A stretch of DNA of 64,000 nucleotides from Hyalangium ruber (lineage in GTDB: Bacteria; Myxococcota; Myxococcia; Myxococcales; Myxococcaceae), in contig NZ_JAXIVS010000002.1 in assembly GCF_034259325.1 (NCBI RefSeq), forward strand, positions 248,001 to 312,000, in the 5' to 3' direction. The position numbers and the translations under genes are program-made. Every line of letters starts with the position of its first letter. The first letter of the stretch is position 1. The notes under the pieces were generated by a model. It had not been told where the DNA came from. It did not search any database and saw only the letters and a program-made list of their open reading frames with translations. Of this stretch, positions 51,947 through 59,351 are shown one piece after another.

Positions 51947-54900
51947 TCAGCCCCTGCCCCGGCCGACCAGGGCGAGCAACTGCGCGCCGTAGCGCTCGAC
52001 CAGCTTGGGCCCCACGCCCTGGATGGACATGAGGGCCTCGTTGTCCTCGGGCCGCACGGCGGCGATGACGCCCAACACGCGGTCCGTGAGGATGCGGAAG
52101 GCGGGCACGCGCCGCTTGCGGGCCTCGGCCAGCCGCCACGCCTTGAGCGCCTCTACCAGGGCGGGCGAGGCCTTGGGCAGGGCCTCGCCACGGCTCGGGC
52201 CCCGGCGCACGCCGACGTCCGACTCCTCGTCCCAGCCTCCTGTCTCCGCGTCCTCCTCCCCGTCGCGCACCACTGTCAGCCCGCCGTCGCGTCCTGCTCG
52301 CTCCGGGGGGGCCTTCCACGCGCTGGCGCGGCGCGGCTTCTCGGTGCGTCCCCGGGTGGGCTTCGCCAGCCGGGCCCGGGCCTTCTTCTTCCCGGCCTTG
52401 GCCTCGAGCGCCAGGGGCAACATCACCAGGTTGGGCTCGATGACCCGCGTGCGCTGGCCGTCCGGCGTGAGCGTCAAGCGCTGGAAGGTGATGCGCTGCC
52501 CGTCCTTCTCGAACGCGTCCTCGCCCAGCCGCGCCAGTCCCGCGCGCACCAACCCTCCCACGAGCCGCTCGAACTCGCGGCGCGGCAGCGACTCTCCGAA
52601 GAGCTCTCGGTGCAGGCGGCCGGTGGCCTGCCCATCCCGTTCGTGCAGCGCGTCCAGGATGCGCCCCAGCGCGTGCAGCTCTCCCTCGCCCGGCTCGGCG
52701 AAGCGCAGGGTGACGCACGTCTCCGGGGCGCATACGTCACACAGGCCGCACGCCTTGCCCGAGTCCTGCACATCGCCGAAGTGCGCCACCAGGTGCCGCA
52801 TCCGGCACCCCGAGGCCTCCGCGTAGCGCCCCATCTGCTCCAGGTGGTGCTGCTTGCGCTCGCGCTGCGCCGCGTACGGCTTCACCCAGCCCGGCCCGCC
52901 GCGGCGCACCTGCTCGTCCGGCGTCACCTCCATGCCCCCGTGGATCCACAACTGCTCCAGGGCCTTGTCGAAGACGTCGGGGTCCATGCGCACGCGCGCC
53001 TGGAGCGCCTCCTTGGGCTCCAGCTCGACGCGGGCGGCCCGATAGAGCTGCTCCAGCACACTCGGCTCCGGGTAGTCGCGCTGGTGGAAGAACTCGTGGG
53101 TGCGCCGGTCCACATAGGAGTGGAACAACACCGCGCGCGAGGGCTTGCCATCCCGGCCCGCGCGCCCCAGCTCCTGGTAGTAGCCCTCCAGGCTCGCGGG
53201 CAGCGCGGCGTGAACCACGGTGCGCACGTCCGCCTTGTCGATGCCCATGCCGAAGGCCGTGGTGGCGACGATGACGTCCACCCGCCCCGAGAGGAAGGCG
53301 GCCTGCACGCGGTCGCGCTCCTCGGGCTTCATGCCCGCGTGGTACATGGCGGTGGACAGCTCGCCGTTCAAAAGCTCCGCGAACTGCTCGGTGTGCTTGC
53401 GCGTGGCGGCATAGATGATGGCCGGCCGGTGCTCGGGCTCGGACAGCACCTCGCGGATGGCCTCGCCGCGCTGGCCCGGGTTGAGCTCCCGCACCTCGAT
53501 GGCGATGTTGGTGCGCCGGAAGCCGTGGATGAAGGTGCGAGCCGCCCCGCTCCGGGTGCCCTTCAGCCCGAGCTGCTGGACGATGTCGCGCTGCACATCC
53601 GGCGTCGCCGTGGCGGTGAGCGCCACCACTGGCGCGGGGCGCAGCATCGGCAGCCGAGTGCCCAAGAGCCGGTAGTCCGGCCGGAAGTCATGGCCCCACT
53701 GGGAGATGCAGTGTGCCTCGTCGATGGCGATGAGCGAGGGCGTGCGCCGGGCCAAGAGCTCCACGAAGCCGGGGACTCCCAGCCGTTCGGGCGCGATGAA
53801 GAGGAAGTCCAGCTGCCCCTCCAGGTAGTCCGCGCACACCTGTCGGGAGGTAGCCCGGTCCCGGCCCGAGTGGATGCGCTCCGCCGCGAAGCCGAGGGAC
53901 TGGAGCCGCGTCACCTGGTCCTCCATCAGCGCGATGAGCGGGCTCACCACCAGCGTGGTCCCTGCCCGCGCCAGCCCTGGGAGCTGGTAGCACAGCGACT
54001 TGCCCGCGCCCGTCGGCATGACGAGCAGCAGGTCCTCTCCCGCCGTGGCGGCCCGGCACACCTCCTCCTGGTAGGGCCGGAAGTCCTCGAAGCCGAAGGC
54101 CTGCTTCAAGAGCTTGCGCAGCTCACCGGGAGGAGTGGGCGCCCGGGGTATCCGCGCGACCTTCTTGCCCGTGGGAGCGGCAGCGGACACAGGCGCGGGT
54201 TTGGGACGAGCCGGTGCAGCCTCGCCCTGCCGCTCCTGCACGGGTGCCGGCGGCGCGCTCCGAGGCGGGGGCGGTGGCCGGGGTGGCACTGGGCTCATGG
54301 GCGCCTTGCCCACCACTTCAATGACGTAGGCCTCGATGCTCCTCAGGAAGTCCGACAAATCCCCCCGGCCGCGCTCGATGCGCTGCAGCCACGCCTCCCA
54401 CTGCCCCGTCATCGCCGGCGTCTTCACATCCGGATGCACCACCTGAATGAGCCGGATGCCCTTCTCCGTCGCCTCCAGCGACTTGCCCCGGCGCACCAGG
54501 TACTCGCGCTCCAGCAGCACCTCGATGATGGCGGCGCGCGTGGCCGGTGTCCCCAGCCCCGTCTCCTTCATCGCGTCCGCCAGCTCCTTCTCGTCCAGCG
54601 TCCGCCCCGCCGTCTCCATCGCCGTCAGCAGCGACGCGTCCGTGAAGCGCGGCGGCGGCCGCGTGCGCTTCTTCACCGCCTCCACGTCCTCCACCCGCTG
54701 CGGCTGCCCGCGCTCCAGGCCCGGAGGCAGCTCCTGCGAGTCCTCCTCCTCCTTCCCCTCGCCCTCTTCCTTCTTCCCCTTGCCCTCGCGCCCCTTCGGC
54801 GGCTTCGCGCCCCCGATGTCCAGCACCTTCCACCCCGCGCGCACCACCTGCGTGCCCGAGCTGTGGAAGCGATCCACCTTCGTCGCCCTGCCCGCTACCT

Positions 54901-56293
54901 GGGAGCTCACCGCCGTAATCACCGTCGTCACCGACCAGACGTGCTCCTCGTGCCACGCCGCCAGGAGCCGCCGACACACCAGCTCGTAGATGCGCTGCTC
55001 GTCCGTCGACAACCGCACCCCATCCGGAGACGTGGGCGTGGGCACGATGGCGTGGTGGTCCGTCACCTTCGCGTCATCCACGAAGCGCTTGCCCAGCGGG
55101 CGCTCCCCCGTGCCCGGCGCCAGCAGCGGCTCGTAGGGCCTGCGAATCGCGCGAACCACCTCGGGCAGCGTCTCCGCCACCGACGCCGACAGGTGCCGGC
55201 TGGAGGTGCGCGGATAGCTCAGCAGCTTGTGCTTCTCATACAGCGCCTGCGCCAGCTCCAGCGTCCGCTGCGCGCTGTAGCCGTAGAGCCGGTTCGCGTG
55301 CCGCTGCAGCTCCGTCAAGTCGTACAGAAGCGGAGGCGCCATCCGCTTCGTCTCGGAGGTGAGCGACTCGATGGCCGCCTTCCCCGTCCGCACCCGCGCC
55401 ATCACCTCGCCGGCCTCCACCCCATCGGCCGGAAGGCGCCGGGCCTCGCGCGTCGCCTCCGCCGTGCGCGGCACCTTCGGGTCCAGCTCCCGGAACCACG
55501 TGCCCTGGTAGCGCGTGCCCGCCGCCACGCCGGGCGCCTGGGGCTCGAAGGTGGCCACCACCTCCAGGTAGTCCTCCGGCACGAAGTCGCGGATGACCAG
55601 CTCCCGCTCCACCACCATCGCCAGCGTGGGCGTCTGCACCCGCCCCACCGACAGCATCTCCCCGCCCGCCGAGAGCGTGTACAGGCGCGACAGGTTCATC
55701 CCCACCAGCCAGTCGGCCCGGCTGCGCCCCTTGGCCGCGTCGGCCAGCGCGTCGTACGCCTGCCCCTCCTTGAGCTGGCGGAAGCCCTCGCGGATGGCGC
55801 TCTCCGTCAGAGACGACACCCACAGCCGCTTCACCGGCTTGTGGCACCCGGCCGCCTCGTAGATGTAGCGGAAGATGAGCTCGCCCTCTCGCCCCGCGTC
55901 CGTGGCGCACACCACCCCGCTCACCTCGGGCGCGTTGAGCACCTCGCGCACCACCGCGAACTGCGAGCGCGTGCGCTCCGACACCACCAGCGGCCACTGC
56001 TGGGGCAGCATGGGCAACTGCTCCCGGCTCCAGCGCTTCCACTCCGGCCGCACCTCGTGCGGCTGCGCCAGCCCCACCAGGTGGCCAATGGCCCACGTCA
56101 CCACGTAGCCGTTACCTCGGAAGCACCCCTCGCCCTGCTGCGAGGCCCCCAGCGCCCGGGCGATGTCTCGCGCCACCGCCGGCTTCTCCGCCACCACCGC
56201 CAGCACGGACGCACGGCTCCCGTGAGCCGCCTCGCGGCCCTCCCAGCGAGTCCTCTGTCCTTCGCGTCCTGCGCCCATCACTTCCCACCTCAT
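51947..56293 (-). CDS. DNA topoisomerase III-RecQ helicase fusion with HRDC domain
   Basis: 1448 residues. Residues ~28-665 are type IA topoisomerase III: TOPRIM at [20 protein letters not shown] with [11 protein letters not shown], and active-site Tyr ~360 in [11 protein letters not shown]. After a Pro-rich linker (~668-720) comes a full RecQ helicase (~725-1200): FRPYQEEV, Walker A [24 protein letters not shown], and [24 protein letters not shown]. The RQC zinc Cys cluster CGLCDVC follows. A ~180-residue basic linker leads to a C-terminal HRDC ([16 protein letters not shown]...[11 protein letters not shown]). RecQ and Top3 together dissolve double Holliday junctions (Sgs1-Top3, BLM-TOP3A); here they are one chain. 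ATG 56293 is preceded by GGGAGGGGAAGGT. Confidence 0.9.
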   Translation of the reverse strand: [1448 protein letters not shown]

Positions 56294-56813
56294 ACCTTCC
56301 CCTCCCACCCCGCCCTGGCCAACCCACTGCGTCCAGGCTCCCGTGGCCAACTCTCTTCCTTATCGTGCCCGGCCGACATCGCACCCCGCCGCCGCACCCT
56401 ACCTGGCGAGGCTGCCTCCCCTACCGCCAGGGAGCCTACCTCCCACCTTTCACCGGGGCGCCCCACCGCGCGGAGCCCCTCCACCGGGTGCGCTCATACC
56501 CGGGGCGCGTGGCGTTTTCACGCAAGCGGTTGGCGCTCGTCCGCAAACCTGCTCGCAGGCGCATGGCCATCATCGACGCAGGCTCGCACGCCGTCGCGAC
56601 GCGCGGGCAGGGGGATGTCAGGGGGAGTCGCGGTCGGGCTCGTTCCTCCAGGAGCCGAGCAGGGGTCCAGGCATGGAGGAAGGTGCCGCTCATGCCGGGA
56701 GGGGCACCGGGGTCGGGAGATTCGAGGCGGGAACGCTCACCGGGAGGGGAGAGCGTCCCATCGCAACGAGTCGGCGCGGGGGATGCCTCGGAAGGGGCAT
56801 CCCCCATCGCTTT
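56294..56813. other. Intergenic region upstream of the topoisomerase-helicase fusion gene
   Basis: About 520 bases between the exported epimerase and the topoisomerase-RecQ fusion on the same strand. No gene supported; the long open frames here have no fold features. It contains the stem-loop listed at 56778-56805. The fusion gene's promoter presumably lies here, but no clear -35/-10 pair stands out. Confidence 0.4.
56778..56805 (-). terminator. 10-bp perfect hairpin after the exported epimerase gene
   Basis: GGGGGATGCC (56778-56787) pairs perfectly with GGCATCCCCC (56796-56805) around an 8-base loop. It lies 9 bases past the minus-strand gene stop, so terminator function is likely although no T-run follows on that strand. 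Confidence 0.5.
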
Positions 56814-57989: not shown

Positions 57990-59279
57990 CTAGCGGGCCG
58001 GGGCATCGCCGGTCAGCGGCGCCAGCGAGGCCACCCCGGTGCCGCGCCGGACCCGGGGGTGCCGGGCCAGGTACAGGGAGATGCCCAGCCACAGCCCCGC
58101 CACCGGCATGGCCGTCAGCAGCACCCCGCCCGCTCCCAACCCGAGGGCGGTGAGCCCGCCCTCCATCCAGCCCCCCACCACATCACCGCCCCGGTACACC
58201 ACCGTGTCGATGAAGTTCTTGGCCTTGTACTTCTCCTCGCGGGTCACCGTGGTGAAGAGGACTTCTCGCGAGGGCCGCTCCAGCGCGTAGTGCGAGGCGC
58301 CGCGCAGCGAGCGCACGCCGATGAACAGCAGGATGGCGGGCATGATGGCCAGGGCCAGGAAGCCCAGCCCGGTGAGCACCGGCGCCACGGCCATGGCCAC
58401 CGCCAGTCCCAGCTTGGAGATGACGCGCCCGGTGACGAAGGCCTGCAGCACCAACGTGAGCCCCTGCACCCACAGCTCGATGTTGGCGAAGGCGGTGGTG
58501 CGCGCGGCGGCGCCGCTGGCCACGGAGTCCACCAGCTTCACCTGGAGGATGTACAGGAAGGAGGAGGTGACGGTGTAGAAGACCGTCTGCAGGCCCAGCC
58601 CCATCAGGAAGGGCGAGGAGACCAGCAGCTTGAGGCCGGCGAGCACCCCGCCGCCCACGGGCTCTCCGGTCGAGGGCGGGAACTGCACCTCGCGGGCCCA
58701 GTGCCCGAGCCGGCGCACGCACTGGGCGCTGAGCTCCAGCAGCACCACCGTGACGAGGATGAGGTTGATGGGCCCCAGCGGCACGGCGAACTGCCGCACC
58801 AGCAGCAGCCCTATCAGGATGCCCGTGGTGCCGCCTCCGGCGATGAAGCCGAACAGGCGCTTACCCTGCTCGCTGGCGAAGAGGTCCGCCATGAAGCTCC
58901 AGAAGATGGAGACGACGAACAGGTTGTAGACGCTGAGCCAGACGTAGAAGGTGCGCGCCACCGTCTCTCGCGCCACGTCCAGCTTCAGCAGCACGAAGAA
59001 GACGAGCAGGTTGAGCAGGAAGAAGCGGTAGACCAGGGGGATGACGCGCTTGCGTGGCCAGCGCGACACCAGGGCCGAGAAGAGCGGCACCGCCACCAGC
59101 ATCACCACGAAGGTGATGGTCCACAGCGCCTTGAGGTCCTTCACCCCGCCGGCCGTGCCCATCGCGTCACGCAGCGGCTTGAGGATGAAGTAGCCGCACA
59201 TCAGCGTGAAGAAGTAGAGGAAGGACCAGAGGACGGCCCCTACCTCCTCCTCCCGCACGTCCACGAATCGCTTGAGCAT
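57990..59279 (-). CDS. NTP/NDP exchange (Tlc/AAA)-family transporter
   Basis: 429 residues from ATG 59279, with about eleven to twelve membrane helices. The conserved start FTLMCGYFILKPLRDAMG resembles the ADP/ATP translocase (Tlc) family of rickettsiae and chlamydiae, which also occurs in free-living bacteria where its role is less clear. Other features include RFFLLNLLVFFVLL, WSFMADLFASEQGKRLFGFIAGGGTTG and RGASHYALERPSREVLFTTVTREEKYKAKNFIDTVVYRGGD. Candidate substrates are nucleotides or similar phosphorylated molecules. It is followed by the exported epimerase gene. Confidence 0.8.
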   Translation of the reverse strand: MLKRFVDVREEEVGAVLWSFLYFFTLMCGYFILKPLRDAMGTAGGVKDLKALWTITFVVMLVAVPLFSALVSRWPRKRVIPLVYRFFLLNLLVFFVLLKLDVARETVARTFYVWLSVYNLFVVSIFWSFMADLFASEQGKRLFGFIAGGGTTGILIGLLLVRQFAVPLGPINLILVTVVLLELSAQCVRRLGHWAREVQFPPSTGEPVGGGVLAGLKLLVSSPFLMGLGLQTVFYTVTSSFLYILQVKLVDSVASGAAARTTAFANIELWVQGLTLVLQAFVTGRVISKLGLAVAMAVAPVLTGLGFLALAIMPAILLFIGVRSLRGASHYALERPSREVLFTTVTREEKYKAKNFIDTVVYRGGDVVGGWMEGGLTALGLGAGGVLLTAMPVAGLWLGISLYLARHPRVRRGTGVASLAPLTGDAPAR

Positions 59280-59351
59280 GGATGACCGCGCGTCCAACCC
59301 GCGCCCGGAGAGGCTATTCCCGGCGCGGGCCCACCGCCAAGGCGCGGGGCG

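Follow-up and report, generated by a model that had tools for sequence, protein, structure and literature searches.

Does a single gene of the myxobacterium Hyalangium ruber specify both a topoisomerase III (Top3) and a RecQ helicase, and what might such a joined enzyme do in the cell? We analyzed this locus within a stretch of 64,000 nucleotides, here called the window. A preliminary description had stated that RecQ and Top3 are normally separate proteins, which holds, and had read one uninterrupted Top3-RecQ frame from the DNA. This reading was confirmed: the minus strand is open from an ATG at 56293 to the stop at 51947, and both enzymes stay joined in all 27 related loci of our genome collection as well as in 79 to 80 loci of a phylum survey. 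That frame encodes the two enzymes in full, and their catalytic motifs are conserved.

One open frame with two complete enzymes

A TTG at 56350 is a possible alternative start further upstream. Since the N-terminal segment MRWxxMG is common to the homologues from Hyalangium, Myxococcus and Pyxidicoccus, the ATG is favored. The N-terminal extension of a form with 1815 amino acids (L073, genome G010) was rejected: it is upstream DNA read in frame that seems to be untranslated, and the start of this homologue would lie near MVRVVVAEKPS. At its 3' side the fusion gene faces a convergent gene of the PLD family (cardiolipin-synthase-like), and upstream a gene for an NAD-dependent epimerase follows on the same strand after a gap of about 520 bases; because of these neighbors the gene looks monocistronic. 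A sigma-70-type promoter pattern was not found between 51700 and 56900, nor was an SOS-box-like site found upstream of the fusion with the repeat patterns GTTC/GAAC and CTG-N10-CAG, all of these patterns being uninformative in a GC-rich host. Elsewhere in the window, the minus strand encodes a membrane protein of 435 amino acids (57990-59297) that is without a Pfam match and by eye resembles an ATP/ADP translocase or an MFS-like transporter.

Table 1. Features of the fusion gene, with positions in the window and residue numbers of the predicted protein.
Feature	Position	Strand	Basis
Top3-RecQ fusion gene, 1448 aa	51947..56293	-	open frame, ATG start
Toprim domain, residues 33-161	55811..56197	-	Pfam; alignment: E36 and TDAGREGE motif invariant
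Type IA core, Topoisom_bac, residues 180-650	54344..55756	-	Pfam (356 bits); AF2 model; Foldseek to E. coli topo III
Segment opposite the E. coli decatenation-loop region, residues ~267-290	55424..55495	-	HMMER alignment
Predicted catalytic tyrosine Y360, SYPRT motif	55214..55216	-	invariant in alignment; SYPRT in 79/79 loci
Pro-rich flexible linker, residues ~664-725	54119..54304	-	sequence; low pLDDT at both ends; fast evolving
RecA-like domain 1, DEAD, residues 739-901; Walker A MPTGAGKS at 759	53591..54079	-	Pfam, alignment, survey
RecA-like domain 2, Helicase_C, residues 944-1049; QELGRAGRDG	53147..53464	-	Pfam, alignment, survey
Extra winged-helix-like insert at helicase core/zinc domain boundary, residues 1060-1131	52901..53116	-	AF2; spacing comparison
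RecQ zinc-binding domain, invariant Cys 1163, 1182, 1185, 1188	52730..52870	-	Pfam RecQ_Zn_bind 1142-1188; alignment
RQC-like winged helix, residues 1203-1275	52469..52687	-	AF2; structural alignment to RecQ cores
Disordered basic segment, residues 1312-1370	52184..52360	-	pLDDT <50
HRDC, residues 1378-1443	51965..52162	-	Pfam (66 bits); genome search

The first half of the protein scores above the cut-offs of both NCBIfam models for bacterial topB (PRK07726, 659 bits with a cut-off of 597; TIGR01056, 549 bits with a cut-off of 515.75). In the alignment Y360, E36 and D132 are invariant, giving the catalytic tyrosine and the Glu and Asp of the TOPRIM domain, and the second Asp of the TOPRIM DxD motif is a Gly, likewise in Listeria TopB. 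AlphaFold2 (AF2) models were built for each half separately; that of the Top3 half has a pLDDT of 84.3 and most closely resembles E. coli topo III. The segment listed next to the core was labeled according to the position that we take the decatenation loop to have in E. coli topo III.

SF2 motifs and the aromatic-rich loop are present in the second half, which reaches 389 bits with the NCBIfam model recQ_fam (cut-off 219.8). It stays below the cut-off of the 'recQ' equivalog model TIGR01389 (472 vs 640 bits), and so does the separate RecQ encoded on contig 7 of the same genome with 473 bits; judged by these profiles, the fused helicase is assigned to the wider RecQ family only. The model of the RecQ half (residues 700-1448) has a pLDDT of 86.6 and aligns best with the RecQ proteins of Deinococcus and E. 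coli, RECQL5, WRN and BLM. Pfam and NCBIfam models recovered the Top3, RecQ, zinc and HRDC parts that had been listed for this protein before, and the gene coordinates given there are right. The Pfam model for the RQC winged helix found no match in the fusion; however, in the AF2 model the zinc cluster is followed by a winged helix, and the model aligns through this region with the RecQ cores of E. coli and Deinococcus. Between motif VI and the first zinc cysteine the fusions have 110-114 residues, whereas ordinary RecQs have 44-54; other myxobacterial RecQs also carry inserts at this place (124-127 and 202 residues). Two fusion variants (L072 and L018) stop without an HRDC domain.

The linker is only loosely constrained. 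The distance between the end of Top3 and Walker A ranges from 47 to 374 residues across the surveyed fusion loci, and against six close relatives the linker dN is 0.36-0.58. In the same comparison the dN/dS values are about 0.18-0.28 (Top3), 0.13-0.16 (RecQ core) and 0.10-0.25 (HRDC); these low values indicate that both halves are maintained by purifying selection.

Distribution and origin of the fusion

To follow up the distribution of the fusion, for which the preliminary description had called, Top3 loci were retrieved from a sample of 193 Myxococcota genomes. The fusion is not peculiar to H. ruber: a single Top3-RecQ frame was found by BLAST in 79 loci and by Pfam in one further genome (G182), altogether about 80 of the 193 genomes, several of these frames coming from single-contig genomes. 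Several further fusions are split merely by contig ends, and five seemingly unfused cases were rejected because their frames run off the contig. Most fusions belong to the family of H. ruber itself (family code f1), with single cases in f2, f9, f15 and f19. Carriers in the genome collection include Myxococcus xanthus, Corallococcus, Pyxidicoccus, Archangium, Citreicoccus and Hyalangium, and the nearest relatives by fusion gene are Hyalangium and other Archangiaceae/Myxococcaceae. In much of the Myxococcaceae/Archangiaceae, Top3 as a rule takes the fused form, and in other families of the Myxococcota this form turns up sporadically. Stand-alone TopB was found in six genomes and as an extra copy in another one, and some of these proteins carry C-terminal Toprim_Crpt repeats. 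Top3 is missing altogether from some Myxococcaceae and from most of the f2 members sampled, so that parts of the clade can do without its activity.

The DEAH, TAT, Walker A, motif VI and SYPRT motifs are present in all 79 surveyed fusion loci. TOPRIM or zinc motifs are missing in a few loci, among them frames cut by contig ends; in complete copies the TOPRIM Glu, TDAGREGE, the SYPRT tyrosine, Walker A, DEAH, motif VI and the zinc cysteines are invariant. In a protein of 1125 amino acids (L079:245-3619, on contig G012:C54) the Top3 part looks intact, and the RecQ-like module behind it is degenerate: Walker A and DEAH are lost and the zinc cysteines are retained (GCRLSN...CGRCDGCD). This protein may be a variant of the fusion with a dead helicase or may stem from a separate fusion. 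Two copies carry labels from outside the group: the sequences suggest that one from a Bryobacteraceae MAG (L021, on a contig of 3.8 kb) is contamination and that one from 'Comamonas sp. KCTC 72670' (L040) belongs to a misnamed myxobacterium.

The genome of H. ruber (10.8 Mb) encodes two type IA topoisomerases, TopA (890 amino acids) and the fusion. Since TopA is the sole other type IA enzyme, the fusion is the only Top3 of this genome. Three RecQ-family genes score above the cut-off: the fusion, a gene for 693 amino acids on contig 7 and one for 730 amino acids on contig 6. The question of separate copies, raised earlier, is thereby settled for H. ruber, which has separate recQ genes but no separate topB. 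The contig-7 RecQ has an unusual layout, with about 200 residues from motif VI to the zinc cluster, about 119 after it, and no Pfam RQC match.

In a careful RecQ tree, 24 fused RecQs make up one side of a branch with a support of 100/100 and a long stem, and in a quick tree the fused Top3s group together with a support of 89. Because the fused RecQs form a deep clade of their own, the fusion appears to be old and mostly inherited and not a local accident. An enlarged RecQ tree places one unfused sequence inside the fused clade, a stand-alone RecQ of the fused type with 730 amino acids (L201, G192:C1040). The DNA upstream of it encodes the end of an unrelated protein and not Top3, so that L201, which comes from a MAG that is 86% complete, has probably lost the Top3 half. 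An unfused ancestor in family f12 was considered and rejected, since its full-length RecQ matches group outside the fused clade. A phage or plasmid origin was rejected as well: none of the plasmid and phage records matched as much as 80% of the query, and the viral contigs yielded no relative. These data are most simply explained by a single fusion event, after which the gene was mainly passed on vertically, with some losses or transfers. The scattered cases in f2 and f9 come from draft assemblies and could be transfers or binning errors.

Proposed function and alternative explanations

RecQ helicases move in the 3'-5' direction, and topo III opens a single strand transiently and lets strands pass through the break. 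When joined, RecQ and topo III should unwind and unlink joint molecules. We favor, with a probability of roughly 60%, a single-chain RecQ-Top3 enzyme that would unwind and decatenate recombination and replication intermediates. The RecQ half would travel along ssDNA in the 3'-5' direction and would either open joint molecules such as double Holliday junctions (dHJs), D-loops or converging forks or cause them to migrate. The tethered topo III half would cut one strand with Y360, pass the other strand and reseal the break, removing the links that unwinding creates, and the flexible linker would keep a 1:1 partner within reach while leaving the geometry free. Synthesis as one polypeptide, coupled activities and a role in dissolution or decatenation are what we infer; a dissolvasome role is plausible. 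Possible, and put forward here quite tentatively, is a stricter form of the proposal: a one-chain bacterial dissolvasome in which the ATPase steps of RecQ are mechanically coupled to strand passage by Top3, yielding crossover-free dissolution of dHJs by a dedicated RecQ paralogue that serves no Top3 but its own.

The preliminary description had RecQ and Top3 acting together in eukaryotes and in bacteria; the bacterial part of this statement is disputed. A physical interaction of RecQ with topo III has not been observed in E. coli (PMC13244152, 2026), deletion of recQ does not mimic deletion of topB, and RecG has been proposed as the partner of topo III (PMC13244152). According to papers cited in PMC13244152 and PMC7614492, RecQ stimulates topo III of E. 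coli in vitro, and both resolve converging forks together. In Listeria monocytogenes recQ is followed by topB after about 23 bases (L131:3986-7935), in the order opposite to that of the fusion, and this adjacency hints, as an independent pointer, at a functional link.

The two halves might act independently, Top3 as a decatenase for precatenanes or R-loops and RecQ in ordinary repair, so that the fusion merely equalizes expression. We consider this unlikely. The long, variable and disordered linker would suit such independence, RecQ and topo III are separable by E. coli genetics, and the relative G192 has the same type of RecQ unfused. However, the in-frame fusion has been kept in about 80 genomes and H. 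ruber has no free Top3; moreover, other, separate RecQs already exist, so that one more RecQ, retained only in union with Top3, points to a dedicated partner. That the fusion acts in the manner of reverse gyrase and alters supercoiling at the expense of ATP is very improbable. The ingredients are the same, an SF2 helicase and a type IA topoisomerase in one chain, with a weak profile match and a structurally similar topoisomerase half, but the fusion has its helicase at the C-terminus and falls outside the reverse gyrase family, reaching 101.5 bits where the model requires 471.7. In addition, E. coli topo III is its nearest structural match, and its helicase is a RecQ with zinc domain, winged helix and HRDC. 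An assembly, frameshift or gene-calling artefact that joined two adjacent genes has next to no chance and was rejected at the DNA level: long chance frames are common in GC-rich DNA, but the same single frame is conserved in about 80 independent assemblies, single-contig genomes included, with linkers of many lengths.

Comparison with known systems

A paper describing a natural Top3-RecQ fusion was not found in the open-access literature. The gene is plain to see in public genomes, and the fusion is a conserved and apparently unreported joining of two known enzymes. A RecQ-topo III partnership in bacteria, of the kind formed by BLM/Sgs1 and Top3 in eukaryotes, is contested, with E. coli genetics against it (PMC13244152); a natural fusion across a large part of a phylum, together with the lack of a free Top3 in H. 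ruber, is evidence from genomes that at least some bacteria benefit from the pairing. The fusion offers a single purified protein and a tractable carrier, Myxococcus xanthus, for direct dissolution tests. RecQ MXAN_1950 of M. xanthus (PMC12288472) is either the fusion or a separate RecQ.

With bacterial TopB (E. coli 1i7d/2o19; PRK07726/TIGR01056) the fusion shares Toprim, the type IA core, the catalytic tyrosine, the segment at the decatenation-loop region and alignment over the full length; it differs by the RecQ helicase attached after the core and by the motif DAGREGE, also found in Listeria TopB, where E. coli TopB has DPDREGQ. With RecQ helicases (E. coli 1oyw; human BLM 4cgz) it shares the order RecA1-RecA2-Zn-WH-HRDC, the RecQ motifs and the aromatic-rich loop, but this RecQ sits behind Top3, has an extra winged helix of about 65 residues before the zinc domain and belongs to its own deep clade. 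Reverse gyrase is the known single-chain type IA topoisomerase/ATPase (PMC3905885). It likewise joins an SF2 helicase module to a type IA topoisomerase, in the opposite domain order and with a different helicase family. The BLM/Sgs1-TOP3A-RMI dissolvasome also pairs a RecQ helicase with topo III; in the fusion the physical joining known from BLM/Sgs1-Top3-Rmi1 is found at the level of the reading frame, which predicts one polypeptide. Top3 has reportedly been joined to a RecQ helicase before, in yeast Top3-Sgs1 fusions engineered by Bennett and Wang in 2001 and cited in PMC3905885, but those were laboratory constructs, whereas the present fusion is natural and conserved.
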